64,000 nt of DNA from Verrucomicrobiota bacterium (lineage in GTDB: Bacteria > Verrucomicrobiota > Lentisphaeria > JABSQK01 > JAJFLO01): NCBI GenBank assembly GCA_021772675.1, contig JAJFLO010000257.1, positions 1 through 64,000 on the forward strand, given 5' to 3'. Within the stretch, counting starts at the first letter, position 1. Each line of letters begins with the position of its first letter. The notes beneath the pieces were generated by a model. The model saw only the letters and a list, made by a program, of their open reading frames with translations, did not search any database and was not told the origin of the DNA. Position numbers and translations under genes: made by a program. Positions 4,258 through 29,499 of this stretch are shown one piece after another.

Positions 4258-4438
4258 GTACGTTGTCCACGCTAAAATTTCGTAATGATTTTGTCTAATT
4301 TAAAAATTGAGAGACTTTGACAACGAAAGAGACGCAACCCTAGTCGGGCACGGGACTTTTAAGTACAGATTCACTGTCAATATAAAACGGTGCTAAATTT
4401 CCTCGCGTCATTACAAAATTTTAGCGGGGTCAAGGTAC
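4258..4438. repeat. Second 181-bp terminal-inverted-repeat element
   Basis: Left arm GTACGTTGTCCACGCTAAAA (4258-4277), continuing to 4288, is matched by an inverted right arm at 4408-4438 that ends TTTTAGCGGGGTCAAGGTAC. About 27 of 31 positions pair. The interior shows no clear pairing and no reading frame. It abuts copy 3 of the other family, and its last base is the first plus-strand base of the stop codon of the receiver-kinase gene, so that gene's end may have been set by the insertion. Confidence 0.7.
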
Positions 4439-5661
4439 TAGTTATTACCTAGGTAATTCAACCAAGAGTTACTGTTGCAAAAAAGGTTAGAAAAATCGCG
4501 ATAGGGGGTTTGAATCGCTTTTATGTTTTTTTCACCAAATGGAATTTTAATTTCAAATTTAGTTTTTTTATTCGCATCCACTTCCATTTCACCTCCTAAA
4601 TGATAAACAATTAGATGGGAAATTAACAAATTTATACCTGCACCATCAACCATTGAAGATTTTGCAGAAAAAGGAGAATATAAACGAAGTTTTTGATCAT
4701 CCGACCATTCGAACAAATCATCGTTTAATGATAATGTTAGACTTCCATTTGCATCATCCAACTTACTTATATTTACAGTAAGTTTAATCTCTGATCTTAA
4801 ATTTGTAAGGATATTAAAAATTGATAAAAGATTTTCCAATAAATGTACAATGAACTTTGGTCCAATATCCAAACTATCAATCTCAGATATTATATCAATA
4901 CTCAAATTGATGTCTTCAATTAATTTTTCTCCCATTAAATCAGGTATTGATTCAAAAAATGCATTTATATTACTGATAGTTCCATCTTCTGATTGATTGA
5001 ATATTTTGCGCAATTCTTTAAGGGTAGTGTAAATGTATTGACTTTCAGTCCTTGGCAATTTTTCCATGTCCCGCCAAAACTCGTTATATACTGACATATC
5101 AATTTTAATATCAGGTATACTATTAACAAAAGCAGCGATAGCCCCAATTGAATTGTTAATATCTGAATCTAAACACAAACCAAGTATAGCGAGGTTTTTG
5201 TCATGATTCGCATTGAACATTCTCTGAATAATCGACAGTTTTTCGAGTACCAGCCGATTTCTTTCTTTTTGGATCAGATAAAAATCAACTGAACGCATCA
5301 GCGTCACTCTCAGCTCAGGAATGTCCCATGGTTTACTGATATATTTGTAAATTGCCCCTTCGTTAACAGCATCAACGGCACTTTCGATATCCGCAAATGC
5401 GGTGACAAGAATCCGTATCATGTCAGGGTAATTTTCTCGAACTCTTTTTAATAGCTGAACACCACTTTCTCCCGGCATTCGCTGATCCGAGAGAACCACT
5501 GAAATCTGATCACTGTGATCCTGTAGCATCTCCCACCCCTGAGCGGCATTCTCAGCGGTATAGATAATAAAATTTGATGAATATATTTTATTAAAATATT
5601 TTAAGGAATTTAATTCATCATCAATGTATAATACTGCATAGTTCTTATAGTCAATACTCAT
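4438..5661 (-). CDS. PhcR-like receiver protein with degenerate kinase domain
   Basis: A 407-residue protein from the ATG at 5661. The N-terminal receiver (about 8-125) has the acidic pair in LYIDDE, phosphoacceptor Asp59 in VVLSDQRMPG, and the switch Lys in ISKPWD. The C-terminal half aligns with the paralog at 23216-24475 but has lost kinase residues. Where the paralog has LNHHIRN this one has LDSDINN, so no phosphoacceptor His is present, and the DDGPGI ATP-lid motif is missing although GAGINLLISHLIVYHLGGEM remains. Such receiver plus kinase-like proteins with the LYxDDExxSLKYF start resemble PhcR of Ralstonia. It is divergent from the polyketide synthase, 107 bp away. It may act as a phosphate-receiving partner or scaffold; the last point is inference. 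Confidence 0.8.
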   Translation of the reverse strand: MSIDYKNYAVLYIDDELNSLKYFNKIYSSNFIIYTAENAAQGWEMLQDHSDQISVVLSDQRMPGESGVQLLKRVRENYPDMIRILVTAFADIESAVDAVNEGAIYKYISKPWDIPELRVTLMRSVDFYLIQKERNRLVLEKLSIIQRMFNANHDKNLAILGLCLDSDINNSIGAIAAFVNSIPDIKIDMSVYNEFWRDMEKLPRTESQYIYTTLKELRKIFNQSEDGTISNINAFFESIPDLMGEKLIEDINLSIDIISEIDSLDIGPKFIVHLLENLLSIFNILTNLRSEIKLTVNISKLDDANGSLTLSLNDDLFEWSDDQKLRLYSPFSAKSSMVDGAGINLLISHLIVYHLGGEMEVDANKKTKFEIKIPFGEKNIKAIQTPYRDFSNLFCNSNSWLNYLGNN

Positions 5662-5768
5662 AGTTAACTCGCATAAAATGACAAAACTGTATAATGCTGT
5701 ATGGTTCGAATTAAAAAATAAGCGCAATTAATAAAGCACTCTATATATTAATATTATACTATATACAC
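5662..5768. promoter_or_regulatory. Divergent promoter region, receiver-kinase / PKS
   Basis: A 107-bp AT-rich intergenic region serving two divergent genes. A TATAAT lies at 5690-5695 on the plus strand, 73 bp before the PKS start, without a good -35 at 17 bp. A second -10-like TATACT is at 5755-5760, close to the ATG. No Shine-Dalgarno precedes the PKS ATG. Confidence 0.35.
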
Positions 5769-8700
5769 ATGAACAAATTCATCAAATTCAATACTTTAGT
5801 AGACTTACTACACTATCGAGCAAAAACTCAAACAAATGAAGATGCGTTCATATTTCTAGATCGGCATGGCAATCTAGAAACAAAGATCACTTACAACGAT
5901 ATTTTTTTAGCTGCAAAAACTATCGCTGCTGAGTTGAGAAATAACATCAATGAAGGTGAAAGGGTACTGCTGCTGTATAATACAGGTCCCGAATTTATAA
6001 ACGCATTGTTCGGTTGTTTAATTGCCAACGTTATTGCTGTTCCGGCATTTCCACCAAGAAATAACCGAAATGTATCACGTATCCATGCAATAGCCAAGGA
6101 TGTATGTGCGCGAATTTGTCTTACATCTGATTCGATTTATGATCGATCCAAACAGCTCTTTGACATCGTTCCTGAACTGCAAAAGCTGATACTACTCAGT
6201 ACTAACTCAATTTCCGGTATTAGAGAACAATCTAAAAACGCCGCAAGTATTACACCTGAAACTTTAGCAATACTGCAGTACACCTCAGGTTCAACAGAAA
6301 CACCGAAGGGTGTTATGGTTAATCATGAAAATTTTCTACACAATCTTTCTTTTGCTTATAACAGATGGGAGCTCTCAGAGAACAGCAGACTTATATCCTG
6401 GCTCCCTTTCTTCCATGATATGGGACTTATTGCCGGAATTCTGTTACCCATCTTCGGGGGCTTTCCCAGTATTTTAATTGCCCCGACTTCATTTATAGGA
6501 AACCCGTTTGTGTGGTTAGATGCTGTCTCCAGATATCGGGCAACAATATCAGTGGCACCAAATTTTGCCTATGATTTATGTGTTCAGAAAATTCCCCGAG
6601 CCAAACGCAAAAATCTTGATTTATCGTCTTGGAAACTCGCAATTAATGGAGCAGAACCTATCAAAAAACAAACATTGGACTCCTTTGCAAACACATTTAA
6701 AGAATGTGGATTCGAAGCACAAGCACTCACCCCAGGATATGGCTTGGCTGAAGCCACACTTGTTGTTGCTGTCGGCAGCAAAAGAAGGAAATATATTTCT
6801 AAAAAAATAGACGCTGATACATTAACGTCAACACAGACGGTAGTGGATAGTCGGGCAGCGAGTCATGCAAAATTTGTCGTCGGCAGTGGACAGAAAGCCC
6901 CGGACCAAACCATAGTCATTGTTGATCCGAAAACAAAGACTAAACGTGCTCGAAACAACGTGGGTGAAATCTGGCTGCGTGGTGCAAGTGTTGCTAAGGG
7001 GTATTGGCAGAAAAAACGAGAAACGAAAAATACATTCAATGCTTATTTGTCCGATACAGGGGAAGGACCATTTCTCAGAACAGGTGATTTAGGTTTTTTG
7101 GATAATGATGAACTGTTTATCACTGGTCGGCTAAAAGACTTAATCATTATTAGAGGTATGAATTATTATCCTCAGGACATCGAAGAATCTGCCGTTAAAT
7201 CCCACCCATCCTTGATCCTTGGTGGTGCTGCCGCATTTTCGATGGAAACAGGTGGAATTGAGGAGTTGGTAATCGTTCTGGAAACAGCGAAAATTACGGA
7301 TAAAAATTACGAACACATCGTTGACCAGGTTAAAGTGTCGGTAACAGAAACTTTTGGTATCTACCCGCGCGCAATTATACTTGTCAAGAAACAAAGCATT
7401 CCTAAGACAAGCAGTGGCAAAGTTCAACGACGCTTCTGCAAAAAACATTTTTTGACCGATAATCTGAAGATTATAAAATTGTGGGAAGATTCCAATACCT
7501 TTCAAACGGCCCATAAGAGCCCGCGATCAGATGAAATTAAATCTGACAATAATGTAGACTCTTCCTCTCCAAAAGAAGATTTTAAACAGTGGTTAATCCA
7601 ATTAATAGCAAACGAAATAAAGATCCATCCTGAAGTAATAAATCCTTCCGAAAATTTGTCACAGTATGGAATGGATTCACTGATTGCTGTTGCAATCGTT
7701 TCAAAAATAGAAAAGAAGATAAACCGGTCACTTCCTCATTCAACATTATTCGATTACCCTTCCATTCATAATCTATGTGACTTCTTATTTGGAACTGAAA
7801 ACAATAACGAACGGGGGGCATTCAGCCGATATAGGAAGGATGAAAAAATAGCAGTTATAGGGATTGGATGTCGATTTCCCGGTGCAAATAACCCGGACGA
7901 ATTTTGGCAATTGCTAAAAAATGGCGTCGATGCAATTACCGAAGTTCCTCCGGATCGATGGGATATGAATTCGTTTTATGACCAGAACCGCAATCAAACA
8001 GGTAAAATGAATAGCAAATGGGGTGGATTTATTGATGATATCAATTCGTTGGATTTTGATTTTTTCGGTATTGCAGCCCGGGAAGCAAAAAGCATGGATC
8101 CACAACAGCGGCAGACACTCGAAGTCTGCTGGGAAGCATTAGAACACTCCTGCAAAGTTCCCGAACAACTCAAAGGCAGCCAAACTGGAGTTTTCGTCGG
8201 TACGTGCAGCTTTGATCATACATTAAATGAATTATCCGACCTGTCAGATATCGGCCCGTATGCTGGTACAGGAACTGCCCATAGTATCATCGCGAATCGA
8301 TTGTCGTACTTCTTCGACTTTCACGGTCCGAGTATCGTCGTCGATACAGCATGTTCTTCTTCATTGACTGCAGTACATTTAGCCTGTCAAAGTTTACGAA
8401 ACCAGGACTGTAATATGGCACTTGCGGGTGGCATTAATTTAATTCTTAGACCCGAACTTTCAATCAGTTTATCCATGGCTAACATGATAGCAGCCGATGG
8501 CCGATGTAAAACATTTGATACCAATGCAAACGGGTACGTTCGTAGCGAAGGCATTGGTATTATTGTATTAAAACGATTGGCTGAAGCAATCAACGATAAT
8601 GATAAAATCCTGGCAATAATCCAAGGTTCTGCCATCAACCAAGATGGCAGAAGTAACGGTTTAACTGCTCCGAATGGCCCCTCTCAGGAAGCAGTAATTT

Positions 8701-11700
8701 GCCAGGCTTTTAAAAATGCTAATATTGATGTCGGTCAAATAAGTTATGTCGAATGCCACGGGACTGGAACTCCACTAGGCGATCCCCAGGAAATACATGC
8801 TCTTAATAATGTGCTTAATGTTGGTCGAATCAACAGACAACCTTGTTTTATAGGTTCTGCGAAAACCAATATCGGCCATGCGGAAGCTGCCGCCGGAATT
8901 GCCGGTTTAATCAAAGTAATCCTTTCGATAATGCACGAAAAAATTCCACAACATCTTCATTTAAGTCAGATTAATTCACAAATAAAAATCGATGAAACTC
9001 CATTTAAAATTCCGCAATTGACATCATGCTGGCCTACAGAATATAGCATGAAAATAGCAGGTGTGAGCTCGTTTGGGTTTGGTGGCACAAATGCCCATGT
9101 TGTTGTCAGCGAATTTCCCGCGATGGATAAATGTCTACCTGAAAAAAATGATTCAAAATTAAACTCAGCAAGAAAAACACATCTTCTAACAATCTCCGCA
9201 AAAACAATCCCATCTCTAAAGAAATTCATTAAGCGGTATCACCAGTTTCTAACTGAAAATCTCGACACCCATTTAGGGAATTTCTGTTATACTGCAAATC
9301 TTGCCCGGTCACATTTTGATCACCGGCACACGATTGCAGCAGATTCTGTCGAGAAAATGATAACACAGCTATCAATCCTCAAGGATAAATTAGCAGATGA
9401 CACTCTTTGTATTCGGAAATTAAATATCAATCGTCCATCTAAACTGATGTTTCTATTTACCGGACAAGGATCGCAGTACCCGAATATGGGAAAAGTTTTA
9501 TATGGTACTGAACCCGTTTTTCGTAAATCGCTGCATCATTGTGATGAGATATTAAAATCACTTCTCAATAAACCACTCCTTTCAATTTTATATTCTGAGG
9601 ATTCAAATGATGCATGTTTAATAAATGAAACGGCTTACATACAACCCGCACTATTCTCAATTCAATACGGATTAATTGAGTTATGGAAATCCTGGGGAAT
9701 TCAGCCTGATGCGGTTATGGGCCAAAGTATCGGTGAATATGCAGCAGCCTACTGCGCGGGAGTCTTCACTTTAGAAGAAGGATTAACCCTGATTGCCACG
9801 CGTGCAAAATTGATTCAGGGACTTCCAAAAACAGGTTCAATGGCAGTAATATTTGCAGATATCAAAACAACATCAAACTTGATCAAATCCCATTCAGAAA
9901 CAGTTTCAGTTGCAGCTATCAACGGACCTGAAATTCATGTTATTGCCGGAATCACAAAAGACGTAAGCGCAATATTAAACGGCGCAACTCAAATGGGAAT
10001 CGACCATAAAATTTTACACGTATCGCATGCGTTTCATTCACCGTTGATGGATCCTATATTAGCCAAATTTGAGTTGATTAGTTCCCGGATCGAATTTCAA
10101 CGACCACACATTCCGTTTTATTCCACATTGACATCCGCATGGATTTCTGAAAAAAATACGCTTCTTGATGGGAATTACTGGACCAGACACATACGGGAAC
10201 CTGTCCAATTTCATCAAGGGATACTGGATAGTATTGATTCAGAGTATAGGATTTTTCTGGAAATCGGTCCGCTTCCGGCTCTTGAAAGTATGGTAAAAAG
10301 AGCGATAACCCAAATCGGCAAATCTGAGGAAATATTATTGCTGCATTCTCTTAATAAATCAGAAGATAATCGGGATTCGATGGCGGGTTCATTGGGTAAA
10401 TTATATAGTCAAGGAAAAAGCGTAAATTGGGAAGGATATCATATAAATCAAACGCACAACTTTATTCACATTCCTTTCTATCCATTTGAAAAAACGGATT
10501 TGAAGCTGGAAAAACCAAATGAAAAAAGTGGTCTGACAAATGCCAATACCGATTCAAACAGTATTACCAGTATTGACTTTGAAAGCATTTCCACGCCAGA
10601 TATAGATAAACTCGTACTCAACGAAAAGCAAAAAGTCGAAAGTCTAAACAAACTAAGTATTCGATATATAGTCGATGTTTTGCAAACATTAAATATCATA
10701 CCAAAAAAGAATGGAAACATAGGTTTAAGTTCAATAAATTTCGATAAAATTCCAGACGAAAAAAAATTGCTTTTAAAATACTGGCTCCACACCTTAGATA
10801 GGGAAAATCTGTTAACGTTTGTCGATGGTAAATATATAACCACCGATAAAATCAATAATTTCCCGAGATATGAACATCTCACAAAGGATGTAAAACGTCT
10901 TTGGGAAAGTGATAATTATTTACCTAAGCTGGTAACTCAATGCGGCTCAAAATTGAATCAAGTCATCAAGGGAGAATTGGATCCAGTATCATTAATGTTT
11001 CCAAATGGCTCGCACTCCCTCCTTGAAGATGTTTATAAATCCTCAGTAATAGGAAATTATTATAATGGAATCATAAGACAAATTGTCTCAAATATAATCA
11101 ATTCAAAAGCAGATACCCAATTGATTAAGATATTAGAAATCGGAGGCGGCACAGGTAGTACAGCATCATCTATTTTACCAGTATGTCATTCTGATAGTAC
11201 TGAATATGTATTCACAGATATTGGCCAGAATTTTATAAATAATGCAAAAAATCGATTTGCCGATTATCCATTTATTTCGTATTGCGTATTAGATATAGAA
11301 ACAGATCCAATCCGTCAAAATTTTACAGAAAATAACTTTGAAATAATTATTGCAGCGAACGTCCTTCATGCAACGAGCGATTTAACTCAATCATTAAAAA
11401 ACATCCGAACACTTCTAAAGCCCGGGGGATATTTAATTTTATGGGAATTAACACAATCGTATCCCTGGTTAGATATTACATTTGGTCTATTACCCGGTTG
11501 GCACGTACATAATGATTCAGAATTTCGGAAAAATTCACCATTGATTTCCTGTAAGTCCTGGAATTCTCTACTTAAAGAAACTGAATTCCATAACATTTAC
11601 TGGTTCCCCTCAACTGAAAAAACAGGATTAGGGCAACATATCCTAGTGTCTCAAAACACGACTTCTACATATAATTCTTCGCCGAACTTGATTACAGAAG

Positions 11701-13580
11701 AATCTGAAATGCAGAATAGCAAAGACTCGCTTTTTTATCAAATTGGCTGGGAAAAATATAGAGAATTTTCACATCATATTGCCACAAATGGCAAATCACA
11801 TATTTGGTTTCTTTTTGCAGGTGAAGATTCAATATCCAAAAACCTGATAATATATCTAAAAAAGCTCGGTTATCCGACGATTATAATTCAACGGGGAAAC
11901 ACATTTAAGCCCATAAGCAAGGACAGCTATGTAATTAATCCGAATGGCAACGACGATTTGACGAAATTAATAAATATTGTTTCTCTGGAAAAACCGCTAT
12001 TTAAATCATATCAATTTATATATCTTTGGGGAATAACGAATAGAAAATCTAAAAAAGTTTCAATTTCTAATATCGAAAACGATTTAGATTATACTTGCAG
12101 GTACCTCATTTCTATCACGCAATCATTAGCAAATTTAACTCGAAAATATAGTCCCGTAAAATTATGGTTAGTGACTCAACATGTTCATGCATATATCAAA
12201 AACACTCATATAGTACCATCTATCAGCCAAGCTCCGATATGGGGAATCGGCAAAGTTATAGCCATGGAATATTCCAAGATTTGGGGAGGTCTTTTTGATT
12301 TAGATGATAACGACCAATGGGTTAATTTAAAAATAATAATTCATTCAATCTTAAGTCAGGAACCTGAAAGAGAATTTGCAATAAGAGAAGGTGAACTATT
12401 CGTACCGAAATTAACACACAGCGATTTGCTGACTTCCAACGGATCATTTTTAAAAATAAAAAAAAGCGGCACCTATCTTATAACAGGAGGATTAGGCGGT
12501 ATTGGATTAGAGCTTGCAAAATGGCTTGTTAAAAATGGTGCAAGACGAATCATTTTATTAGGACGTTCAAAACTTCCAATTAGGAAAAAATGGAATCAAG
12601 TGCCAGCTAACGACCATAAAACTATCAATCGTATCCAAACAATATTGGAATTAGAGGATAGTGGCGCATCAATTCATCTAGCATCGGTAAACATAGCAAA
12701 TAAACGGGCGTTATTTTCATTTTTCAATAAGTTCAAATCAGAGCAATGGCCCCCGATAATCGGGGTAATCCATGCTGCTGGAATTTTGCACGATTGCGCG
12801 TTGTCAAACTTGACAGTAGATTTGTTGGATGAGGTAACTAAACCAAAAATTACAGGTACGTTTTTATTACACCAGGCATTAAAGAATTGCCCTTTGGACT
12901 TTTTTGTATTGTTTTCATCAATTTCATCAATTTTAGGATCTTCAGGCCAGGCAAATCATGCGGCCGCGAATTCATTTTTAGATTGTTTTTCATTTTTCCG
13001 AAAGACATTAGACCTTCCATGCCAAAGTATAAATTGGGGACCATGGGGTGAAACCGGCGTTGTCTCTCATTTAGATCGCACACATTTCCTGAATAGAGGA
13101 ATAGAGCCATTATCAACAGAAGAAGGATTAAAATCTTTAGAGAAAATAGTCTCAGCCGATGTTACTCAATCATCCGTTATGAAGATCAATTGGCAAAAAT
13201 TTACTGAAATTCATTCAGATTTCGATATATCGCTCATTTCAAAATTTTCATCTCCTGATGAGATTGAGCCACATAGACAATTTAAACAAATCAAGTCTAT
13301 TTCACAGAAGATTCAAAAATTAAAAATAATTGAAAAAGAAAATATTTTAAAAAAATTAATTTCAGAACTTTTACAATGCGCTTCAAACAAGATCGAATCT
13401 CAGGAACCTCTACAAAATTACGGTTTTGATTCGATAATGGCAGTACAGTTGAGAAATGAGATAGAACACCGATTTAGAATAAATTTACCTCAAGATAAAA
13501 TCAAAAATTCAAATGTAACTGAACTTCTTGAGTTTTTGAACAGGGAGCCAAATGTCCACAATAATTCAGATGGAAACTAA
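5769..13580 (+). CDS. FAAL-ACP-KS-AT-MT-KR-ACP polyketide synthase
   Basis: A 2603-residue one-module type I PKS with its own fatty-acid loading unit. Order: fatty-acyl-AMP ligase (about 1-590; YTSGSTETPKGV, LPFFHDMGLI), ACP (Ser637 in GMDSL), ketosynthase (Cys862, His997, His1037, with the canonical 135 and 40 residue spacings), acyltransferase (Ser1320 in GQSIGEY; HAFH at 1420-1423, the malonyl-type signature), C-methyltransferase (EIGGGTGST near 1790), ketoreductase (TGGLGGIG near 2240) and ACP (Ser2555 in GFDSI). There is no dehydratase, enoylreductase or thioesterase. Expected product: a fatty acyl chain extended by C2, alpha-methylated and reduced to the beta-hydroxyl, left on the last ACP. 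In the KR the catalytic Tyr position is His2397 (QANHAAAN) while Ser2384 is kept. The next gene overlaps its end by 29 bp. Confidence 0.93.
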   Translation: MNKFIKFNTLVDLLHYRAKTQTNEDAFIFLDRHGNLETKITYNDIFLAAKTIAAELRNNINEGERVLLLYNTGPEFINALFGCLIANVIAVPAFPPRNNRNVSRIHAIAKDVCARICLTSDSIYDRSKQLFDIVPELQKLILLSTNSISGIREQSKNAASITPETLAILQYTSGSTETPKGVMVNHENFLHNLSFAYNRWELSENSRLISWLPFFHDMGLIAGILLPIFGGFPSILIAPTSFIGNPFVWLDAVSRYRATISVAPNFAYDLCVQKIPRAKRKNLDLSSWKLAINGAEPIKKQTLDSFANTFKECGFEAQALTPGYGLAEATLVVAVGSKRRKYISKKIDADTLTSTQTVVDSRAASHAKFVVGSGQKAPDQTIVIVDPKTKTKRARNNVGEIWLRGASVAKGYWQKKRETKNTFNAYLSDTGEGPFLRTGDLGFLDNDELFITGRLKDLIIIRGMNYYPQDIEESAVKSHPSLILGGAAAFSMETGGIEELVIVLETAKITDKNYEHIVDQVKVSVTETFGIYPRAIILVKKQSIPKTSSGKVQRRFCKKHFLTDNLKIIKLWEDSNTFQTAHKSPRSDEIKSDNNVDSSSPKEDFKQWLIQLIANEIKIHPEVINPSENLSQYGMDSLIAVAIVSKIEKKINRSLPHSTLFDYPSIHNLCDFLFGTENNNERGAFSRYRKDEKIAVIGIGCRFPGANNPDEFWQLLKNGVDAITEVPPDRWDMNSFYDQNRNQTGKMNSKWGGFIDDINSLDFDFFGIAAREAKSMDPQQRQTLEVCWEALEHSCKVPEQLKGSQTGVFVGTCSFDHTLNELSDLSDIGPYAGTGTAHSIIANRLSYFFDFHGPSIVVDTACSSSLTAVHLACQSLRNQDCNMALAGGINLILRPELSISLSMANMIAADGRCKTFDTNANGYVRSEGIGIIVLKRLAEAINDNDKILAIIQGSAINQDGRSNGLTAPNGPSQEAVICQAFKNANIDVGQISYVECHGTGTPLGDPQEIHALNNVLNVGRINRQPCFIGSAKTNIGHAEAAAGIAGLIKVILSIMHEKIPQHLHLSQINSQIKIDETPFKIPQLTSCWPTEYSMKIAGVSSFGFGGTNAHVVVSEFPAMDKCLPEKNDSKLNSARKTHLLTISAKTIPSLKKFIKRYHQFLTENLDTHLGNFCYTANLARSHFDHRHTIAADSVEKMITQLSILKDKLADDTLCIRKLNINRPSKLMFLFTGQGSQYPNMGKVLYGTEPVFRKSLHHCDEILKSLLNKPLLSILYSEDSNDACLINETAYIQPALFSIQYGLIELWKSWGIQPDAVMGQSIGEYAAAYCAGVFTLEEGLTLIATRAKLIQGLPKTGSMAVIFADIKTTSNLIKSHSETVSVAAINGPEIHVIAGITKDVSAILNGATQMGIDHKILHVSHAFHSPLMDPILAKFELISSRIEFQRPHIPFYSTLTSAWISEKNTLLDGNYWTRHIREPVQFHQGILDSIDSEYRIFLEIGPLPALESMVKRAITQIGKSEEILLLHSLNKSEDNRDSMAGSLGKLYSQGKSVNWEGYHINQTHNFIHIPFYPFEKTDLKLEKPNEKSGLTNANTDSNSITSIDFESISTPDIDKLVLNEKQKVESLNKLSIRYIVDVLQTLNIIPKKNGNIGLSSINFDKIPDEKKLLLKYWLHTLDRENLLTFVDGKYITTDKINNFPRYEHLTKDVKRLWESDNYLPKLVTQCGSKLNQVIKGELDPVSLMFPNGSHSLLEDVYKSSVIGNYYNGIIRQIVSNIINSKADTQLIKILEIGGGTGSTASSILPVCHSDSTEYVFTDIGQNFINNAKNRFADYPFISYCVLDIETDPIRQNFTENNFEIIIAANVLHATSDLTQSLKNIRTLLKPGGYLILWELTQSYPWLDITFGLLPGWHVHNDSEFRKNSPLISCKSWNSLLKETEFHNIYWFPSTEKTGLGQHILVSQNTTSTYNSSPNLITEESEMQNSKDSLFYQIGWEKYREFSHHIATNGKSHIWFLFAGEDSISKNLIIYLKKLGYPTIIIQRGNTFKPISKDSYVINPNGNDDLTKLINIVSLEKPLFKSYQFIYLWGITNRKSKKVSISNIENDLDYTCRYLISITQSLANLTRKYSPVKLWLVTQHVHAYIKNTHIVPSISQAPIWGIGKVIAMEYSKIWGGLFDLDDNDQWVNLKIIIHSILSQEPEREFAIREGELFVPKLTHSDLLTSNGSFLKIKKSGTYLITGGLGGIGLELAKWLVKNGARRIILLGRSKLPIRKKWNQVPANDHKTINRIQTILELEDSGASIHLASVNIANKRALFSFFNKFKSEQWPPIIGVIHAAGILHDCALSNLTVDLLDEVTKPKITGTFLLHQALKNCPLDFFVLFSSISSILGSSGQANHAAANSFLDCFSFFRKTLDLPCQSINWGPWGETGVVSHLDRTHFLNRGIEPLSTEEGLKSLEKIVSADVTQSSVMKINWQKFTEIHSDFDISLISKFSSPDEIEPHRQFKQIKSISQKIQKLKIIEKENILKKLISELLQCASNKIESQEPLQNYGFDSIMAVQLRNEIEHRFRINLPQDKIKNSNVTELLEFLNREPNVHNNSDGN

Positions 13581-14997: not shown

Positions 14998-15000
14998 AAC

Positions 15001-17679
15001 ATGAATGAACTCCATAGAAACGAAGATAAGCAGATACGGAATGCATTTCAAGAGCGTGAAAATAAAATTTTAATTCAGAGAACCAGAATAGCCAGTTACC
15101 TATTGATTATATGCGGAATGGGAACTGGATTAATTGATCCATTTGTATACCCGGATGCAGCAAAACTTTTATTTATTGATCGTGCGTGTTTTACTCTTTT
15201 CGTTATATTCATCTTATGTTTAACCTACACGACGGCAGGGAAGAAAAATACTCGTATACTGGCGATGAGCTTTATTTATACATTATTGGCTGCTCATGGA
15301 ATCATGCTGTTATTCACCGGAGGTTATACCAGCACCTATTATATTGGATTTCCTATAATCCTCCTTCTAGGAATTTCACTCCTTTTCCCATTATCAGCGA
15401 AAGAATGTATATCCACCTGCTTGGTATCACTTCTCCTCTATTTCGGAATATGCAGTATAGAACTATATTTTAACGGATCACATGCAGTAAACTGGAATCG
15501 TACATTTATCAGTAATACAGTTTTTTTGATAGATTTTTTATTAATAATCTCGGTTTCAGGTTTTTTTACATTTAAGCTTCGATTTCATGATTTTGAGTTA
15601 CAATATGAACTTGACCAAAATAAAAAACATTTAGAAAATTCATACAGGAAGCTGGAGGAATTAGATAACGCCAAAAGTAAGTTTTTCGCTAATATATCTC
15701 ACGAGCTGAGAACTCCATTAACACTTATACTTTCTCCCTTAGAGCAGATCAGAAAAGATCAGAATTTAACGGCAAATGCAAAAGTAAAGGATACGTTAGA
15801 TTTAATGTTCAGCAATGCTATGCGTCTGCTGTCCCTTATAAACGATCTTCTGGATCTGGTTCGTATGGAAGAAGGAAAAATTGCACTAAAATTTACGACG
15901 TTTAATCTTAATGAATTATTGTCAGGATTGGTAAGTTCAGTAAAACATGCTGCTGAAAACAAACAATTGGCAGTCAAGTTTATTGAGAAAGATTCGACTC
16001 CGGTTTTGATAAACGCGGATAAAGATAAGATAGAAAAAGGATTCTTAAACATTCTCTTTAATGCAATAAAGTTTACGCCTAAAAACGGTATTATTGACAT
16101 CGTAATTTCTTCAGAAAATGATGATGCTTTAATCGATATCATTGATAACGGCATAGGCATTGATAGCAATAAATTAGGCTCCGTATTTAATCGGTTCTGG
16201 CAAGACGAAGACAGTGCGGTTTCAACAAAACAAGGAACTGGAATTGGATTAGCACTTGCCAAAGAAATCGTCGATTTGCATGGCGGTACTATTGATGTAT
16301 CCAGCACAAAAGGAAAGGGAACAACGTTTACAATCAAATTGAAAAAAAGTAACGATTCTGTTCCGGATGATACATCTGCTGCCGAAGTCAATGATGCCTG
16401 GTTATCCAATTTATATAAAAGAGCAAAGCATTATCAATTAAATGAAACCCCTGTCGATACGACCCTTATTGCTGATCAAACATCAAAATCTGATTTTTTA
16501 AAACATACATTATTGCTTGTTGAAGATGAACCGGATATGCAACGGTTTCTAAAATCAGAATTAATTGATAAATATAACATCATATCTGCTGGTGATGGTG
16601 CAGAAGGCCTAAAACTAGCAGAGGAATATCAACCCGATTTGGTTTTGACAGATTATACGCTGCCTAATATGGATGGCATTACCTTGTGTAAAAGAATAAA
16701 ATCATCCCCAATTCTGTTACCTACAAAAATCATCCTTGTAACGGCTCGAGCCGATGATCAAACAAAAATCAAAGCGCTCGAGGCAGGTGTTGATGATTTT
16801 CTGGCAAAACCATTCAGTACCACCGAATTAAAAACTCGTCTCGCCAATATCCTTCTCAATTCACAGCTTGAGCGAGAATTACAAAACCAGAATCAGGTAC
16901 TGGAAAATACCCTGCGACAGCTACAGGAGACGGAGTCACAGCTTATTCAGGCTGAACGATTGTCAGCGCTGGGACACTTATCCGCAGGCATAATGCACGA
17001 AATTAATAATCCGGTTAATTTTATGATGACCGCGATCAGTTTCCTGCGAAGTGATTTGGAGGACCCGACGCCGGATGTCGTTGAAACAATTGATGATATT
17101 GAAGGAGGATTAAAGCGAGTCAGAGATATTATTTCAGATCTAAAAGGATTTGCATACGGAAATTCAGACAACATAAAAGAAGAATGTAGTTTAAAAACAG
17201 TTATTGATACTGCAAAGAGATTATTAGCTGATGAAATTACAGAAGACATATCAATAAACGTGTCAACGGATCAGGATGACTTTGTCATCGGCAACCACAA
17301 TCAGTTAACACAGCTGTTTGTGAATTTGATGCAAAATTCAATTCAAGCAACCAGACAAAATGTTGAGAAACGTAAAAATCGTCAAATTAATATTAAAATT
17401 TGCACTGACAAAAATTACAGCATTATCTCAATTAGAGATAACGGATGCGGGATAGAAGATAAAATATCAGCTAATATTTTTGATCCCTTTTTTACAACTA
17501 AAGATGTCGGGGAAGGAACTGGTCTCGGGTTGAGTATCTGTCACACAATAATCAAAAAGCATAATGGCGAGATTTCTGTCAATAGCCAACCCGATGACTA
17601 TACAGAATTTATAATAAAACTTTCGGCATCGACACCATCGACACATGAATCATTTGTACTGGAAACACACACAGCATAA
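15001..17679 (+). CDS. Six-TM hybrid sensor kinase (TM-HK-REC-HK)
   Basis: An 892-residue membrane sensor. Residues about 28-200 hold five to six membrane helices with almost no periplasmic domain, as in sensors of hydrophobic ligands. Then come a HisKA domain with His234 in [12 protein letters not shown], an ATPase domain ([18 protein letters not shown]), a receiver with Asp551 in [13 protein letters not shown], a coiled-coil linker ([20 protein letters not shown]) and a second kinase with His666 in [10 protein letters not shown] and ATPase motifs RDNGCGIE and [12 protein letters not shown]. Both kinase units look intact. The gene follows the methyltransferase by 3 bp, so synthesis and sensing are one transcript. 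This arrangement parallels phcB-phcS in Ralstonia; orthology is not proven. Confidence 0.88.
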
Positions 17680-18052
17680 CGTTGACTCGGAACAAACTTT
17701 GCGGCGAGAATGCTTAGATTGCCTGTATTCAATGGTTTGACGCAGATGAGCGAATGACAGTGTTAAGTTCTGTTGAGCAGAATCGCGAGACAATTTAAGA
17801 CTTTGAATTTAAGTGATATACGCTTTTGTAGCAGAAGAATTGTGAGAAATCTGGGTTAAATTAACGAAATAACCATAGATCATCATTGTAATATTGTTGG
17901 ATAACAAGTTGAATCAATTCCAATTAAATTAAAATTTCAGATGTTATGTTGGAATATTTCGTATTTAACTGACGGTTGATAGCTTATACTATTAGTTATT
18001 TGTTGTAAAAATAAATGAACTGACTCTAACATGTAGGGATAGATATATACTT
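17680..18052. other. Gene-free stretch before the TonB receptor gene
   Basis: No reading frame, tRNA or strong terminator was seen in 373 bp. A -10-like TATACT is at 17985-17990 without a convincing -35. The receptor may therefore have its own promoter, or be read through from the kinase gene. Confidence 0.5.
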
Positions 18053-20287
18053 GTGAACAATATTTCTCACCATATCCTGAATAGCATACCATACCCCTCC
18101 CATTTATCATTATTGTTGATGTTGATCGGTGTTTCCGGTTTAAACGCTGATAGTAATATAAATGAAAGAGGTAAAGATGAATATTATCAATTGGAAACAA
18201 TTATAGTCACGGCTGAAAAGCGTCCTAATGATGCTCAGAAAACACCCATATCTTTGACCACATTTACTGAAAAACTTATAACCAGCACAAACATTGATGA
18301 GATTACAGATATCGCACTAAGAACTCCCGGTCTTACAATTGGCAATAACAGCAATACAAGTGCACCTGAGTTGTACATTCGAGGCGTAGGGACAAGAGCT
18401 TTTAGTACAGCTTCTGACACCAGTATAGGAATTTATGTCGATGATATCTATATAAGTCGAGCTGGTGCGTTATTTTTTGATTTATTTGATCTTGAACAAA
18501 TTGAAGTTCTTCGCGGACCGCAAGGAACACTATATGGGAGAAATACAATTGGCGGTGCGATTCGCATTACAACAAAAAAACCTACAAACGAATTCCATAT
18601 AGAAGAACGAATAAAAGTTGGTAATTTTAATCTATTCGATATTGCGGGGACAATTAGTGGTCCGATTACCAAAGATATAGCATTAGGAAGGTTGTCTTAC
18701 CATTTAAGAGATAGAGATGGATTTAATAAAAACATCTTTAATGAAGATAAACTTGCTGATGTCGACAGCATTGCCAGCCGGGGAACTTTATGGTTGTTTC
18801 CAACTAATGACATTTCTCTGGAGTTAGGAGCTGATTATCAAAAAGACCGGCCAAATGCAATTGTTTATAAACCTGAAATAATCAGCAATATCAAAAACAA
18901 CGGGACCGATATAGGTATATCCATAAATGATCCACCGTTTAATCACGTTGAACCTAGTAATAATTTTGAAGTAAATCATGGCAGTCGAAACACTAGTGAC
19001 AAACGAGATATTTGGGGAGTATCCGGAAAACTAACCTGGGATATTGATAATCTAACGCTGATGTCTCTAAGTTCATTCCGAAAACTCGATATTGATCTTA
19101 TTGATAACCCAGATGGTATAGGATTATCTTTTTTCGACCTCCTGCTCAAAAAGGAACAAAAGCAGTTTTTGCAGGAATTACGACTCTCAAATAAAAAAGG
19201 AACAGATTTCAAATGGATCGCAGGTCTATTTTATTTCCGAGAAAAATCTGCTGAACATGCAAAAGTACTTGCTGAAGACTTCTCATTACTTCTAGGCCAA
19301 GCAGACTTTAGTGCTACAAACATTTCAGAGACTAAGTCAGAGAATTTTGCCATTTTTGGGGATTTAACATTTAGTTTAACAGATCGTTTAAATTTGAATT
19401 TGGGGATTCGTTACTCATATGAAAAAAAAGAGTTTGAATTAGAACGATTGAATAACGTGATTTTTCCAAGTTTACCAAAATCAAGTGATCAAGAAAATTG
19501 GGATGCACTGACACCTAAAATCGGTTTACAATTTCAACAGTCTGATGATTTGTTATGGTATGGGATTGTCTCAAGGGGATTTAAGAGTGGTGGCTACAAT
19601 TCATTTCAAACTACTCAACCAACATTGCAAGGCCCGTTTGATCCAGAATATTTAACTGCCTATGAAATTGGTGTAAAATCCATGTGGATAGATAAACGTT
19701 TGAGATTAAATGCAGCACTATTTTATTATGAACACAAAGATTTGCAGGTTCAGACATTCATACAAAATGTTGTAGAAATTAGAAATGCAGCAAAAGCAAG
19801 AGATTTTGGGATGGAGATTGAAATTATCAATCAATTTTTACGGCGGTTGGAAATCTCAGGTAGCATTGCATTTCTTGAAACTGAGTATACCAATTTTAAG
19901 AATTCCCCTAATAAGAATAATCCGGATGTGTCAGGAAATGCCTTGATTCGAGCTCCAAGATTTAGCTCAAACATTGCGGTTCAATATACGATTCCCATAC
20001 TTAATTATGGCGAAATTAAAGCACGCTGTGAGTATCAATACCAAAGCCGCGTTTACTTAACCGAAACAAATGAAAGTCTTTTGAGTCAGGCAGGATTTAA
20101 CACAGTCAATGCAAAGTTGTCCTATATCACCGCAAATGAACGATTGTCGATAGCAATTTATGGCGAAAATCTTACAAATGAAGAAATTATCAATGTTGCC
20201 TCGGATTTTCGCGATGACTTTGGCACAGTTGTCAGATCATTCAGTCCACCAAGAACATACGGTTTAGAAATCACCTATCGTTATTAA
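18053..20287 (+). CDS. TonB-dependent outer-membrane receptor
   Basis: A 744-residue receptor starting at GTG. A signal peptide (HLSLLLMLIGVSGLNA) is followed by a TonB-box-like ETIIVTAEKR and the plug domain (ALRTPGLTIGNNSNTSAPEL, YIRGVGTRAFSTASDTSIG, VDDIYISR, LRGPQGTLYGRNTIGGAI). The 22-strand barrel follows (WYGIVSRGFKSGGYN, YEIGVKSMW) and the chain ends YGLEITYRY with the C-terminal aromatic of outer-membrane proteins. Length and motifs are normal for the family. It imports ligands at the expense of the TonB-ExbBD system, which is not in this window. Standing between the sensor kinase and the NRPS-like gene, it probably takes up the cluster product or a complex of it; this is inferred from position. 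Confidence 0.93.
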   Translation: MNNISHHILNSIPYPSHLSLLLMLIGVSGLNADSNINERGKDEYYQLETIIVTAEKRPNDAQKTPISLTTFTEKLITSTNIDEITDIALRTPGLTIGNNSNTSAPELYIRGVGTRAFSTASDTSIGIYVDDIYISRAGALFFDLFDLEQIEVLRGPQGTLYGRNTIGGAIRITTKKPTNEFHIEERIKVGNFNLFDIAGTISGPITKDIALGRLSYHLRDRDGFNKNIFNEDKLADVDSIASRGTLWLFPTNDISLELGADYQKDRPNAIVYKPEIISNIKNNGTDIGISINDPPFNHVEPSNNFEVNHGSRNTSDKRDIWGVSGKLTWDIDNLTLMSLSSFRKLDIDLIDNPDGIGLSFFDLLLKKEQKQFLQELRLSNKKGTDFKWIAGLFYFREKSAEHAKVLAEDFSLLLGQADFSATNISETKSENFAIFGDLTFSLTDRLNLNLGIRYSYEKKEFELERLNNVIFPSLPKSSDQENWDALTPKIGLQFQQSDDLLWYGIVSRGFKSGGYNSFQTTQPTLQGPFDPEYLTAYEIGVKSMWIDKRLRLNAALFYYEHKDLQVQTFIQNVVEIRNAAKARDFGMEIEIINQFLRRLEISGSIAFLETEYTNFKNSPNKNNPDVSGNALIRAPRFSSNIAVQYTIPILNYGEIKARCEYQYQSRVYLTETNESLLSQAGFNTVNAKLSYITANERLSIAIYGENLTNEEIINVASDFRDDFGTVVRSFSPPRTYGLEITYRY

Positions 20288-20359
20288 TTCCGGTATTGTA
20301 TATTTTTAATTCATAAACTATAAATTCTTCTAGAGGCCAAATTGCATGGCAAATAAAAT

Positions 20360-23203
20360 ATGCATGATAACACAATAAAAACGTCCCATAGCGGGAGCAA
20401 ATCGCTAGCATCTATACATCCCCTTACTGAATCTGAGAAATATAAAATCTTGAAGGTATGGAATGATACAGACCGAAAATTTAATAATGATGGCTGGTTA
20501 CATAATCAATTTGAAATGCAGGCAGAGTCTCATCCAGATAATGTTGCGATAATATTCAAGAATCAGCAACTTTCCTGCAAACAACTCAATTATAGAGCTA
20601 ACCGCCTATCTCATTTTTTAATCCACAAAGGAGTTAAGGCAAATGTCCCGGTTAGCATCTGCCTGGATCGCTCAATAGAAATGATCGTTGGCATATTGGG
20701 CATAATGAAAGCAGGAGGTGCCTATGTGCCAATTGATCCGGAAGATCCAATTGATCGAATTAATTTCATGGTTAATGAAAGTGGCGCAAATTTATTACTC
20801 ACAACAGAAAGGTTCCTAAAGAAACTACAGGTCAATAGTGAAATCATACTCATAGACAAGGAAATTGAGAATGGAAATAATAACAATCCATCAGTAAACA
20901 TTTCCAAGCATAATGCCGCTTATATGTTATACACATCTGGATCAACAGGTAGACCCAAACTCGCCATAAATACACATGGAGGCATTCTCAATCGAATATT
21001 ATGGATGCAGGAAACTTTCCACTTATCAGAAATCGATAAGATACTCCAAACAGCACCTTATACCTTTGATGTTTCGGTAGGGGAATTTTTTTGGCCACTT
21101 TTGACCGGCGCGACTTTGGTAGTAGCTGAACCCAACGCTCATAAAGATCCGGTATATATTGCAAATATTATCCAATCGCACAAAATAACCATTATACAAT
21201 TTGTTCCCGCAATGTTGGAATTATTTTTATCCGACATTGATAAAGATAAATGTCGAAGTTTAAGGTATATCATTTGTGGCGGAGAAACACTCACAAAAAC
21301 ATTACACGATCATTTCTTTTCCATATTATCTACCGAGTTATATAATTCATATGGCCCAACCGAAGCTGCAATCGCTGTAACTTATTTTCGTTGTGACAAA
21401 AATAGGCCAATTGAAACCGTGGGAGTATCCATTGGTCGCCCGATTGCAAATACAAAAATTTATATTCTAAATTCCCATCTAGACCTTCTTCCGGAGGGTG
21501 TTCCGGGAGAGCTCTATATCGGTGGTGTACAAGTAGGATTAGGTTATCATAATCAGCCTAAATTGACTAAGGAAAAGTTCATCCCAAACCCATTTGACAG
21601 TGCTCATGATTCGCGATTATACCGCACTGGAGATTTAGCTAAATGGCAGCCAGATGGCAATATAGAATTTCTTGGCCGAATAGATCACCAGGTAAAAATC
21701 CGAGGGTTTCGAATCGAATTGGGGGAAATTGAATCAACACTCTCGGAGCACCCGTCAATAAGACAGGCGATCGTATTAGCTCGTAAGAATAAGGAGAAAA
21801 ACCAATTCCTCAGTGGGTATATTGTTTTTGAAGAAAGGAGGCCGCTAGGGATTTTTGAAATCCGCAGCTATCTTGAGCAATTCCTGCCAGACTATATGAT
21901 TCCGGCAAACTTTATATACCTTGAAAAATTTCCGCTTACTCCAAATGGTAAAATCGACCGCAAAAGATTGCTGGAGATTAACAATGTTGAAATGGGACTT
22001 GATTACCAAGCTCCTCAAACAAACTTACAAAGACGTTTATGTGAGATTTGGAAAAATATTCTCCCTGCAAACCGAATCGGTGTTAATGATAATTTTTTTG
22101 TCCTTGGTGGACACTCGCTGTTAGTGCCTGAACTCATCAGGCAAATCTCAGATGAAATTGGCGTAAAGATTTCCTTTGCATCTATGTATGAAAATATGAC
22201 AATTGCGGAATTAGCAAGAGAGATTAAATTAATAAAAAAAACATCCCCAAATGAGATAGAAAGCAATCATATGAATGATTCTCGATCATTAGAAAATATA
22301 TTAACTTTACAATCTGGAAACTCGAATTACTTTTCGCCCATTTTTTTCCTTCATCCACCTATTGGATCTATAGGGTATCTTATAAATTTGGTTAAACATT
22401 TAAATCCAGATCAGCCATGTTTCGGAATACAATCACCGGCATTCAATGGCGTTAGCGAACCTTTTGATGACATGGGAAAAATGGTAACGAGTTACTTAAA
22501 GGGGGTTAGATCTGTTCAGCCAGATGGGTCTTTTATGTTTATCGGCCACTCAAGCGGAGCATTCATTGCCTATGAAATGGCATTACAATTTCAAAACGAA
22601 GGGTTAAAAGTACCACTATTTGTTACTATCGATGAACCAGCACCCAGTTTTGGAGAACAAACTGAAAACCCACTCATGGAGCTATTTAAACAAGAAAATC
22701 TCGGTGACAGTCCTGAGGCACTTTATTTTACTGCATGGGCAGTTGGACTAGCTCACAGCAAAGAATTGCCATTTTCATTGAATCAATTATGCGAAGTAGC
22801 AAAGGCTGAGAGATATGATCTAGTTACTAATTTCCTTAAAACCGCTGGCTTTATTCCCGAAAATGCTAATAATAAAATGGTTGATATGATTTTAAAAATG
22901 TATGCAAATCACAGTACTGCAGAAGAAAATTACAGAAAATCGCTTCGAAATGAATCAACTAAGCTAAAATATAAAGGTCATTCAGTATTGATTCGCTGTA
23001 CTGAAGATACAACTTATGAAGGATTCGGAATTACTGAAGCGGCAGATACTTCAGAATGTGCGGGTTGGGACGAGTTTTGTGAAGGGCCAATTGATGTTAT
23101 CGGTGTACCGGGGGCAAATCATATTACAATGATTATTGAGCCTTATGTAAAAATCATGGCAGAGAAACTACAGCCTTATCTGGACAGATTCGCAAAAAAA
23201 TAG
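20360..23203 (+). CDS. NRPS-like A-PCP-TE enzyme without condensation domain
   Basis: A 947-residue enzyme. The adenylation domain (about 50-540) has YTSGSTGRPKLA, YGPTEAAIA, YRTGDLAKW, KIRGFRIELGEIE and NGKIDRK. The PCP carries Ser586 in LGGHSLL; the type I thioesterase has Ser731 in GHSSG and a late His in PGANHITMI. Asp237 in FDVSV is kept, so an alpha-amino acid substrate is expected. My hand-read pocket code is DVGQIGSIAK, near the ornithine code DVGEIGSIDK but lacking two acidic residues, so the substrate is open. The N-terminus (PLTESEKYKILKVWNDTDR) is the usual linker between a condensation and an adenylation domain, though none is encoded upstream. It may transfer an amino acid to, or release, the PKS product. 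Confidence 0.9.
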   Translation: MHDNTIKTSHSGSKSLASIHPLTESEKYKILKVWNDTDRKFNNDGWLHNQFEMQAESHPDNVAIIFKNQQLSCKQLNYRANRLSHFLIHKGVKANVPVSICLDRSIEMIVGILGIMKAGGAYVPIDPEDPIDRINFMVNESGANLLLTTERFLKKLQVNSEIILIDKEIENGNNNNPSVNISKHNAAYMLYTSGSTGRPKLAINTHGGILNRILWMQETFHLSEIDKILQTAPYTFDVSVGEFFWPLLTGATLVVAEPNAHKDPVYIANIIQSHKITIIQFVPAMLELFLSDIDKDKCRSLRYIICGGETLTKTLHDHFFSILSTELYNSYGPTEAAIAVTYFRCDKNRPIETVGVSIGRPIANTKIYILNSHLDLLPEGVPGELYIGGVQVGLGYHNQPKLTKEKFIPNPFDSAHDSRLYRTGDLAKWQPDGNIEFLGRIDHQVKIRGFRIELGEIESTLSEHPSIRQAIVLARKNKEKNQFLSGYIVFEERRPLGIFEIRSYLEQFLPDYMIPANFIYLEKFPLTPNGKIDRKRLLEINNVEMGLDYQAPQTNLQRRLCEIWKNILPANRIGVNDNFFVLGGHSLLVPELIRQISDEIGVKISFASMYENMTIAELAREIKLIKKTSPNEIESNHMNDSRSLENILTLQSGNSNYFSPIFFLHPPIGSIGYLINLVKHLNPDQPCFGIQSPAFNGVSEPFDDMGKMVTSYLKGVRSVQPDGSFMFIGHSSGAFIAYEMALQFQNEGLKVPLFVTIDEPAPSFGEQTENPLMELFKQENLGDSPEALYFTAWAVGLAHSKELPFSLNQLCEVAKAERYDLVTNFLKTAGFIPENANNKMVDMILKMYANHSTAEENYRKSLRNESTKLKYKGHSVLIRCTEDTTYEGFGITEAADTSECAGWDEFCEGPIDVIGVPGANHITMIIEPYVKIMAEKLQPYLDRFAKK

Positions 23204-23215
23204 TCGCAACCGTCG

Positions 23216-24475
23216 TCAACTATTCGATACTGTAATTTCCTTAAATACCAAATCCTGAAGAAGTTTTCCTTCATTCTTTTTTGACAGTGCTTGAATTGGA
23301 TCTACGGGAAGAAAAATTCGAAATATAACGCCTTCCTGTTCATTCTTCTCTGCGACCTCAATCCTGCCGCCATGATTATGCACTATAACGAATACATTAA
23401 CCAGGTTTACACCAAACTCTTGAGAGTCTTTACTTCTTATGAATAATGGATCAAAAATTGATCCCAATGAATCCGAAGGTATCCCGGGTCCATCATCACT
23501 TATTTCAATAATAACAGCTTCAACGCCATTATATTGATGCTCGCATTTTGCAAGCGATATACGTACATGACTATTTTCAGGTAAATTAATTAATTCATCT
23601 TTCAAAAGTAAGGTAAAAAGCTTCGCTAGCTTATCTGAATCACCGGAAATGGTTGGTAGTCCCTCCTCTACAGTGTGCTCAATTTTTATACGATTTTCGT
23701 CAAATTCTCGGGTCATATTCAAACTGACGTTGTTGACAATGTCTGCAAGGTTTATTTGTTTATCGATGTCTAACGCTGTCGGCTTCAATACAAGGTCCAA
23801 ATGCTGTATTAACAAATTTATTTTGTTAACGTAACTTTGAGCTGTTGCGTATAATTCTACCCAATATTTCGAATTCTTAAGATTTTCAATATCGACATTT
23901 TCCGCTTTTAGTTTTTCAGGTGTTAAATCCAGAAATGTTTTAATTGGAACCAGAGCATTCCGTATATGATGATTTAATCCGGCGAGAAAATTACTCAAAC
24001 TAACTATTTTTTCATTGTTCAGCGTTGTATGCAATAACGAAATTTTTTCATATAAAATGCGATCTTTTTCACGCTGGATTATAGCAAATTCTAACCCTTT
24101 TTTTAATATTATTTCCAGGTCTTTTATATCCCAGGGCTTGGTTATATAATGATAAATTGAACCTTTATTTACGGCATCAATCGCTGTATTCAAATCTGAA
24201 TAAGCAGTTACTAAAATTCGCTGAACTTTCGGTTCTAATTTCGCTACTTTCTCTAATAGATCTACCCCTTTATCACCAGGCATGCGCTGATCACACATTA
24301 GTATTCCAATGATGTCCTTATTTTCTTGAAAAATTCTGAACCCTTCTTTTGCATTGGGTGCAGTGAATATTCGAAATTTTTGTTGAAAAGTCCTATTGAA
24401 ATACTTCAAGGAATTTATTTCATCATCTACATATAAGATTGCAAATCGTTTATAATCAAAAGAAGTGGCCATCAT
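23216..24475 (-). CDS. PhcR-like receiver-histidine kinase
   Basis: A 419-residue protein; the tandem ATGs at 24475 and 24472 are equivalent, with GGGGA upstream. The receiver (8-125) has LYVDDE, Asp62 in MCDQRMPGDKG and ITKPWD. The C-terminal kinase has His169/His170 in LNHHIRNAL as the H-box, and ATPase motifs EISDDGPGIP and FGVNLVNVFVIVHNHGG. A receiver followed by a histidine kinase as the output is the PhcR layout. The gene is convergent with the NRPS-like gene, 12 bp apart, and is the intact counterpart of the degenerate paralog at 4438-5661 on the other side of the cluster. Confidence 0.87.
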   Translation of the reverse strand: MMATSFDYKRFAILYVDDEINSLKYFNRTFQQKFRIFTAPNAKEGFRIFQENKDIIGILMCDQRMPGDKGVDLLEKVAKLEPKVQRILVTAYSDLNTAIDAVNKGSIYHYITKPWDIKDLEIILKKGLEFAIIQREKDRILYEKISLLHTTLNNEKIVSLSNFLAGLNHHIRNALVPIKTFLDLTPEKLKAENVDIENLKNSKYWVELYATAQSYVNKINLLIQHLDLVLKPTALDIDKQINLADIVNNVSLNMTREFDENRIKIEHTVEEGLPTISGDSDKLAKLFTLLLKDELINLPENSHVRISLAKCEHQYNGVEAVIIEISDDGPGIPSDSLGSIFDPLFIRSKDSQEFGVNLVNVFVIVHNHGGRIEVAEKNEQEGVIFRIFLPVDPIQALSKKNEGKLLQDLVFKEITVSNS

Positions 24476-24946
24476 CTACATTCCCCAGCTAATGCGTTGA
24501 TATTCTAAAAGTAAAATTTAAACTTCAATTCTTTAAAAATGGAGATATTTTATGTTGTATAAAAAACATTGCGTTGCTCTAACATAAATTTCAATAGCGC
24601 AACTATAATTGACTTTATACTGCAAGCAGTAAGTTTTTCGACATTCGTTATTCATTTCAGGCAATAATTTTACAGAAACCTGTAGAGACCCTGATGGCTG
24701 TCGGTATAGTTACAAATTTTCTGGTTTCAAACTTTGATTATGGTTTTAGGGTATACTATAATATTACGAGAGATTATTGTGACCAATTTGTGCACTGGCC
24801 ATGAATAAATCAACCCTTCCAGGAAAAGTGATTTAACCTTAAAACGCCATTAATTTTAGAGCGTTTCTTTGGCACCTGTAGCTATTTATAGTTGAGGTGT
24901 GCTGAATATATTTTTTAGAACCACGATTTATTTACTAGGGAAAACT
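24476..24946. other. Intergenic region between divergent receiver-kinases
   Basis: No gene was found in 471 bp; the longest ATG frame is under 15 codons. It contains the promoter described at 24734-24762, and should also contain the start signals for the minus-strand gene at 24475. Confidence 0.55.
24734..24762 (+). promoter_or_regulatory. Sigma-70-type promoter
   Basis: TTGATT at 24734-24739 and a perfect TATAAT at 24757-24762 are separated by 17 bp. It points at the receiver-kinase gene beginning at 24947, leaving a leader of about 175 bases. Confidence 0.6.
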
Positions 24947-26122: not shown

Positions 26123-26364
26123 GCAACAGCTAGCTAAATGAAATCATAGAATACTAAAATCTTCCTCTACTGCCCAATTCATTCATTGTCGAAATTTAAG
26201 TACTATTTACTTACCAAGGGACGATTATACTCAAACCTCATTATAATCCTTATAGATTAATATATAATTCCTTATACGCTCAATTTCATTTTGTGATATT
26301 CGATTGAAAACCCATTTTGGCAAATTAATTTGGTGCTTTAATACATACAATGATAGGGACAACA

Positions 26365-28020: not shown

Positions 28021-28191
28021 AAATTTTATCAAATGTGATCTCTTAAGTTATTGGTATTATTCTTGCTAGTACATTGTGGCAGGGCAAGATTAAGTCGTTT
28101 TGGAATCCGTGTTTTCTTATCAAGTAAGACAATGAGATTAATCCCAAAAGCTCAAAATATTGAAATTCAAAATCTACAAATTCCCTAAGAT

Positions 28192-29433: not shown

Positions 29434-29499
29434 TATCAACGATAGCGTTGTTCTTTTTTTCACATGAAGGGGATGATGTAATATCTAAAAGTCATTTAC

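Follow-up and report, generated by a model that had tools for sequence, protein, structure and literature searches.

We analyzed a 64,000-nt stretch of a Verrucomicrobiota genome (contig JAJFLO010000257.1, positions 1 to 64,000; hereafter the window), in which a FAAL-primed polyketide synthase (PKS), a PhcB-family methyltransferase and a PhcS-like sensor kinase are encoded in immediate succession. Because relatives keep the same pairing of a PKS with Phc-like genes, the locus looks like a cell-to-cell signaling system that makes a special lipid of its own, and we put the probability that it is a Phc-like lipid-signaling module with its own signal-building synthase at roughly 0.6. The original prediction had described a Phc-type locus equipped with a PKS; the linkage of methyltransferase, kinase and PKS stood, but a role for the TonB receptor and the A-PCP-TE enzyme, PhcR proper, a full Phc system and a plain 3-hydroxy product were not supported. 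All seven genes that it named are in place and mostly match their description:

4438..5661, minus strand: RRa, a receiver and degenerate HATPase_c protein, divergent from the PKS (Pfam, BLAST)
5662..5768: 107 bp between the divergent RRa and PKS genes, a probable promoter region
5769..13580, plus strand: FAAL-ACP-KS-AT(HAFH)-cMT-KR-ACP PKS, 2603 aa, one extension module (Pfam, NCBIfam, motifs, alignment with two orthologues)
12957..12959, plus strand: CAT codon, placing His where the KR has its catalytic Tyr (GQANHAAAN; motif and alignment)
13552..14997, plus strand: PhcB-family SAM methyltransferase, 481 aa (BLAST, tree, structure model)
15001..17679, plus strand: PhcS-like sensor kinase, six-TM HK-REC-HK (Pfam, BLAST to PhcS)
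18053..20287, plus strand: TonB-dependent receptor, siderophore-receptor-like (Pfam, NCBIfam)
20360..23203, plus strand: A-PCP-TE enzyme with active-site motifs present (Pfam, NCBIfam)
23216..24475, minus strand: RRb, a receiver (Asp62) and HATPase_c protein with an H-box-like NHHIRN motif (Pfam, BLAST)

The minus-strand gene at 4438-5727 exists as predicted, but its start is better placed at the in-frame ATG (5661) than at the TTG (5727); this leaves the 107-bp gap to the PKS gene. Similarly, the description of the genes as overlapping or abutting applies to the PKS, methyltransferase and kinase (the PKS and methyltransferase genes share 29 bp at the 3' end of the former, and 3 bp separate the methyltransferase stop from the kinase start), but not to the TonB receptor, which is separated from the kinase gene by 373 bp. 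Promoter and terminator scans gave no excess over shuffled sequence. With rpoA, rpsD and rplQ located at 38.5-41.2 kb of the window, the locus is chromosomal.

Membership of the methyltransferase in the PhcB family had been set beforehand as a point on which the prediction could fail, and the protein falls inside that family. The methyltransferase METHYLTRANSFERASE (13552-14997) is homologous over its full length to the PhcBs of the Cupriavidus and Hydrogenophaga phcBSRQ operons, with 35% identity in the N-terminal half and 41-42% in the C-terminal half (BLAST), and in a tree of 84 sequences it sits in a clade of 6 (support 100/100) within a clade of 35 (100/98) that includes the betaproteobacterial PhcBs. 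Hydrogenophaga, Cupriavidus and Ralstonia are carriers of the Phc cluster (PMC10653808); C. metallidurans has phcBSRQ (PMC2864759), and the Phc proteins of C. necator JMP134 are 56-75% identical to those of R. solanacearum (PMC2842291). In the structure model (pLDDT 86), an N-terminal beta domain and a helical linker precede a class I methyltransferase fold, and the fold matches of the model are class I methyltransferases, ChlM among them. ChlM is a carboxyl methyltransferase that esterifies a carboxylate, and the likeness of the model to it is compatible with methyl ester formation, though no proof of it. A Pfam listing of 36 members at E<1 placed neither PilZ nor any other known domain in the N-terminus. 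Partial matches from Enterobacter and rhizobia were discarded as PhcB relatives because they were not full-length and covered only the methyltransferase fold, in one case inside a PKS.

The neighboring kinase matches PhcS in both its membrane and its kinase domain, as had been predicted. Residues 1-205, with six hydrophobic segments, correspond to the membrane domain of PhcS (26-29%, E 1e-8 to 4e-9). HK2 (residues 626-892) corresponds to the kinase domain of PhcS (33-34%, E 1e-46 to 1e-51), and an additional HK1 (His234) and a receiver (Asp551) are inserted between the two. The H-box of His666 in HK2 corresponds to that of the PhcS His at position 230 (Hydrogenophaga) or 231 (Cupriavidus), and a functional His230 has been reported for Ralstonia PhcS (PMC11960443). 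In a Kiritimatiellae genome, the kinase is split over two genes, the first encoding 6TM-HK and the second receiver-HK.

The two flanking receiver proteins, which had been taken for PhcR-like receiver-kinases, are nearer to PhcQ: their receivers, both fused to HATPase domains, show 40-43% to PhcQ and 33-36% to PhcR (Pfam, and BLAST against Cupriavidus and Hydrogenophaga). The receiver Asp of RRa is Asp81 when numbered from the TTG at 5727. In the window, both proteins are encoded on the strand opposite to the set that they flank, whereas phcR and phcQ lie downstream in one operon; in Verrucomicrobiota, an RRb-like protein is the usual gene after the kinase. A full Phc system could not be recognized either. 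The LysR-type HTH_1 domain (PF00126) had no match in the 86%-complete window genome, while the same search was positive in 13 of 14 control genomes, so that PhcA is probably missing and the module must use another output; this counts against a Phc-like module. The TonB receptor and the A-PCP-TE enzyme, also counted as parts of the system in the original prediction, do not recur in about 100 related loci and lie beyond the 373-bp gap after the kinase gene; they are therefore probably neighbors or a lineage addition, although we speculate that the receptor might take the place of a FadL-type channel. In Ralstonia, the ralfuranone synthase RalA is regulated by Phc. For this reason the A-PCP-TE enzyme was considered as a possible RalA-like protein, but the idea was dropped, as its best plasmid matches are cyanobacterial NRPS modules (33-39%) and its gene is not conserved with the set.

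Scanning genome contigs with the window methyltransferase as a single sequence returned no matches; an alignment-based scan returned many loci, the best 80 of which were kept. Among the 100 PhcB-family loci examined, which span Verrucomicrobiota, Planctomycetota, beta- and gammaproteobacteria and a few further groups, the sensor kinase adjoins the methyltransferase in 93 (mostly Verrucomicrobiota), 58 of them with the long fused kinase form, and an RRa/RRb-like protein is present in 83. The commonest extra neighbor is a FadL-type outer-membrane channel (Pfam Toluene_X), found in 27 loci by clustering and within 1.5 kb of the methyltransferase gene in 22. This FadL/TodX-type channel gene often stands directly upstream of the methyltransferase. 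Among 198 genomes of its class, only the window genome has the methyltransferase, which suggests that the module was acquired horizontally, from outside the class. One locus is decaying (L055:9956-12222): its methyltransferase is intact, but all that is left of the kinase is a membrane remnant of 102 aa plus a piece of the ATPase, and the genome has no FAAL-PKS. This retention of the methyltransferase with a truncated kinase and no PKS counts against the module.

The pairing of methyltransferase and kinase also bears on the possibility that the methylated lipid made by the PKS and methyltransferase is a natural product other than an autoinducer, with the kinase and receivers serving as local regulation that senses something else. 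We consider this unlikely, though deserving of attention: the genome is a heavy PKS producer, a TonB receptor and an NRPS-like A-PCP-TE enzyme lie alongside, PhcA was not found, and the product structure is itself a prediction. However, methyltransferase and kinase stay together in the 93 loci with or without a PKS, as fits a synthase-sensor pair, and the kinase has the membrane domain of PhcS in common.

For the synthase, domains and active-site residues were read from Pfam, NCBIfam, motifs and an alignment with two orthologues. A FAAL-ACP loading part precedes a single KS-AT module, and the motifs of the KS (DTACSSSL, VECHGTGT, KTNIGH), AT (GQSIGEY, HAFHS), cMT (NVLHAT, LWE) and both ACPs (GMDSL, GFDSI) are intact; we take the HAFHS motif of the AT to indicate malonyl-CoA specificity. 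The domains and their order, the HAFH malonyl-type AT and the intact cMT are those of FAAL-primed single-module PKSs with a C-methyltransferase, from which the window PKS differs in its linkage to a signaling methyltransferase and kinase and in its KR. These residues support fatty acid loading, one malonyl extension and alpha-methylation as the probable course of synthesis. In the KR, the Tyr of the YxxxN motif is replaced by His; both intact FAAL-PKS orthologues and the four reducing PKSs (hrPKSs) that we checked have Tyr. This may reflect a true inactivation or a single wrong base; with His in the KR, the product chain in the window copy may stay 3-oxo. The plain 3-hydroxy product first proposed is at odds with both the C-methyltransferase and the KR without its catalytic Tyr. 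DH, ER and thioesterase domains were not found in the PKS with Pfam and NCBIfam, and the lack of a thioesterase dedicated to the PKS counts against the module, as does the altered KR.

The set of PKS, methyltransferase and kinase was sought in other genomes, in line with the check proposed with the original prediction, and it proved to be conserved. Two other Verrucomicrobiota, Pedosphaera sp. Baikal (G389) and Verrucomicrobia NC_groundwater_1487 (G391), carry FAAL-PKS orthologues of 2593 and 2695 aa next to the methyltransferase and kinase genes, in the order RRa-like(-), FAAL-PKS(+), kinase(-), methyltransferase(-), FadL(+). The PKSs of the window, G389 and G391 align end to end (for the orthologues, Pfam gave the order of domains in G389), and RRa is divergent from the PKS in all three. 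The FAAL domains of four PhcB-bearing genomes (the window genome, G389, G391 and the Kiritimatiellae genome) form one clade (99/99) relative to the FAAL-PKSs of PhcB-less genomes, while the corresponding KS-AT tree does not resolve the order within that part. FAAL-PKSs of similar identity also occur without PhcB, which counts against the module. In the Kiritimatiellae genome, PhcB, PhcS and a receiver-kinase are kept, and the FAAL-PKS orthologue is in pieces, in at least 5 separate frames about 0.9 Mb from the PhcB locus, through decay or sequencing error. This genome is probably that of the pateamine symbiont Candidatus Patea custodiens (PMC7157528).

PKSs also adjoin a second PhcB clade (100/98). 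All five members of this clade (L038, L045, L046, L048 and L049) have a KS-AT-DH-ER-KR-ACP PKS within about 65 bp upstream of the methyltransferase gene (2.1 kaa; domains were read in two of the five). These loci of other Verrucomicrobiota share the PhcB-family methyltransferase, fused kinase, receivers and neighboring PKS with the window, but their PKSs have neither FAAL nor cMT and their methyltransferases belong to a different clade. In the open-licence literature, we found no relevant report on phcB in Verrucomicrobia and no paper on phcB with PKS and FAAL; a description of the PhcB-hrPKS loci was likewise not found in the literature searched.

With these linkages in hand, two further explanations can be weighed. 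The PhcB homologue might use precursors of ordinary fatty acid synthesis, as in Ralstonia, with an unrelated PKS lipid merely traveling with the module. Most PhcB-family loci indeed have no PKS, and the methyltransferase persists both in L055, where the PKS is gone, and in the Kiritimatiellae genome, where it is in fragments; we nevertheless think this explanation improbable, given that PhcB is linked to PKSs of two different designs, that the PKS and methyltransferase genes overlap in the window and that the FAAL phylogeny matches. The window genome is an unusually large polyketide producer, with about 88 KS matches in 7.3 Mb, many of them in open frames of 4,000-7,000 codons on seven contigs. 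Such abundance raises the chance of accidental adjacency and to that extent counts against the module. Yet a chance neighborhood is barely credible, since G389 and G391 also encode an orthologous synthase next to the methyltransferase and kinase and, as in the window, have RRa divergent from the PKS. The pairing of PKS, methyltransferase and kinase recurs in other genomes and is thus more than chance, despite the PKS-rich background, and we rejected chance adjacency as contradicted by the conserved linkage and the FAAL clade.

For the preferred reading, a Phc-like module with its own synthase, the gene content suggests the following route. The FAAL would activate a fatty acid for loading onto the first ACP, and the PKS would carry out one extension with malonyl-CoA followed by C-methylation. 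In the orthologues, the KR would then reduce the chain to a 2-methyl-3-hydroxy acyl chain, a step that is doubtful in the window copy. A separate thioesterase would presumably release the acid by hydrolysis, and the PhcB-family methyltransferase would convert it to a methyl ester that diffuses out; the predicted signal is the methyl ester of a 2-methyl-3-hydroxy (or 3-oxo) fatty acid. The six-TM PhcS-like kinase would sense this ester and pass phosphate via its own extra receiver and second kinase to the soluble PhcQ-like RRa and RRb. With the Phc system of Ralstonia and Cupriavidus (phcBSRQ and phcA), the module shares the methyltransferase family, the 6TM PhcS-like kinase and soluble PhcQ-type receivers. 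It differs in its dedicated FAAL-PKS, the HK-receiver inserted in the sensor, receivers encoded by flanking genes on the other strand instead of the operon tail, the absence of a detectable LysR/PhcA regulator, and its phylum, Verrucomicrobiota. Alpha-hydroxyketone quorum sensing of the Lqs/Cqs type also relies on a membrane sensor kinase for a lipid-like signal. That kinase is a feature in common, but the Lqs/Cqs synthase is a PLP enzyme (LqsA/CqsA) and not a methyltransferase; Lqs and Phc have been treated as distinct (PMC10653808).

A survey limited to Pseudomonadota placed the phc cluster mainly in Betaproteobacteria (PMC10653808); the synthase-sensor pair now extends across Verrucomicrobiota, Planctomycetota, Gammaproteobacteria and others. 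A PKS beside the pair in two PhcB lineages would allow private lipid signals instead of signals drawn from ordinary fatty acid synthesis. Since some carriers are polyketide-rich, including the probable Candidatus Patea custodiens, the module could be tested as a candidate switch for silent natural-product genes, and cultured hosts exist (Pelagicoccus). A bolder extension, which we offer tentatively and would sooner doubt than assert, is a Verrucomicrobiota-wide quorum-sensing family. Its dedicated PKSs, of at least two designs, would build custom autoinducers in the form of fatty acid methyl esters (with alpha-methyl branches, for instance), and a PhcS-type kinase that contains its own phosphorelay would sense them. 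Such systems would work without PhcA and might control large PKS arsenals in symbionts.

Further signaling genes lie elsewhere in the window. At 24899-31425, a Na/alanine symporter is surrounded by three more receiver/histidine-kinase proteins, of which one combines two receivers with an Hpt domain, and at 61104-62357 (minus strand) a Ser/Thr protein kinase is fused to a receiver domain. A TPR-repeat protein of 2047 aa is encoded at 50530-56673 (plus strand).
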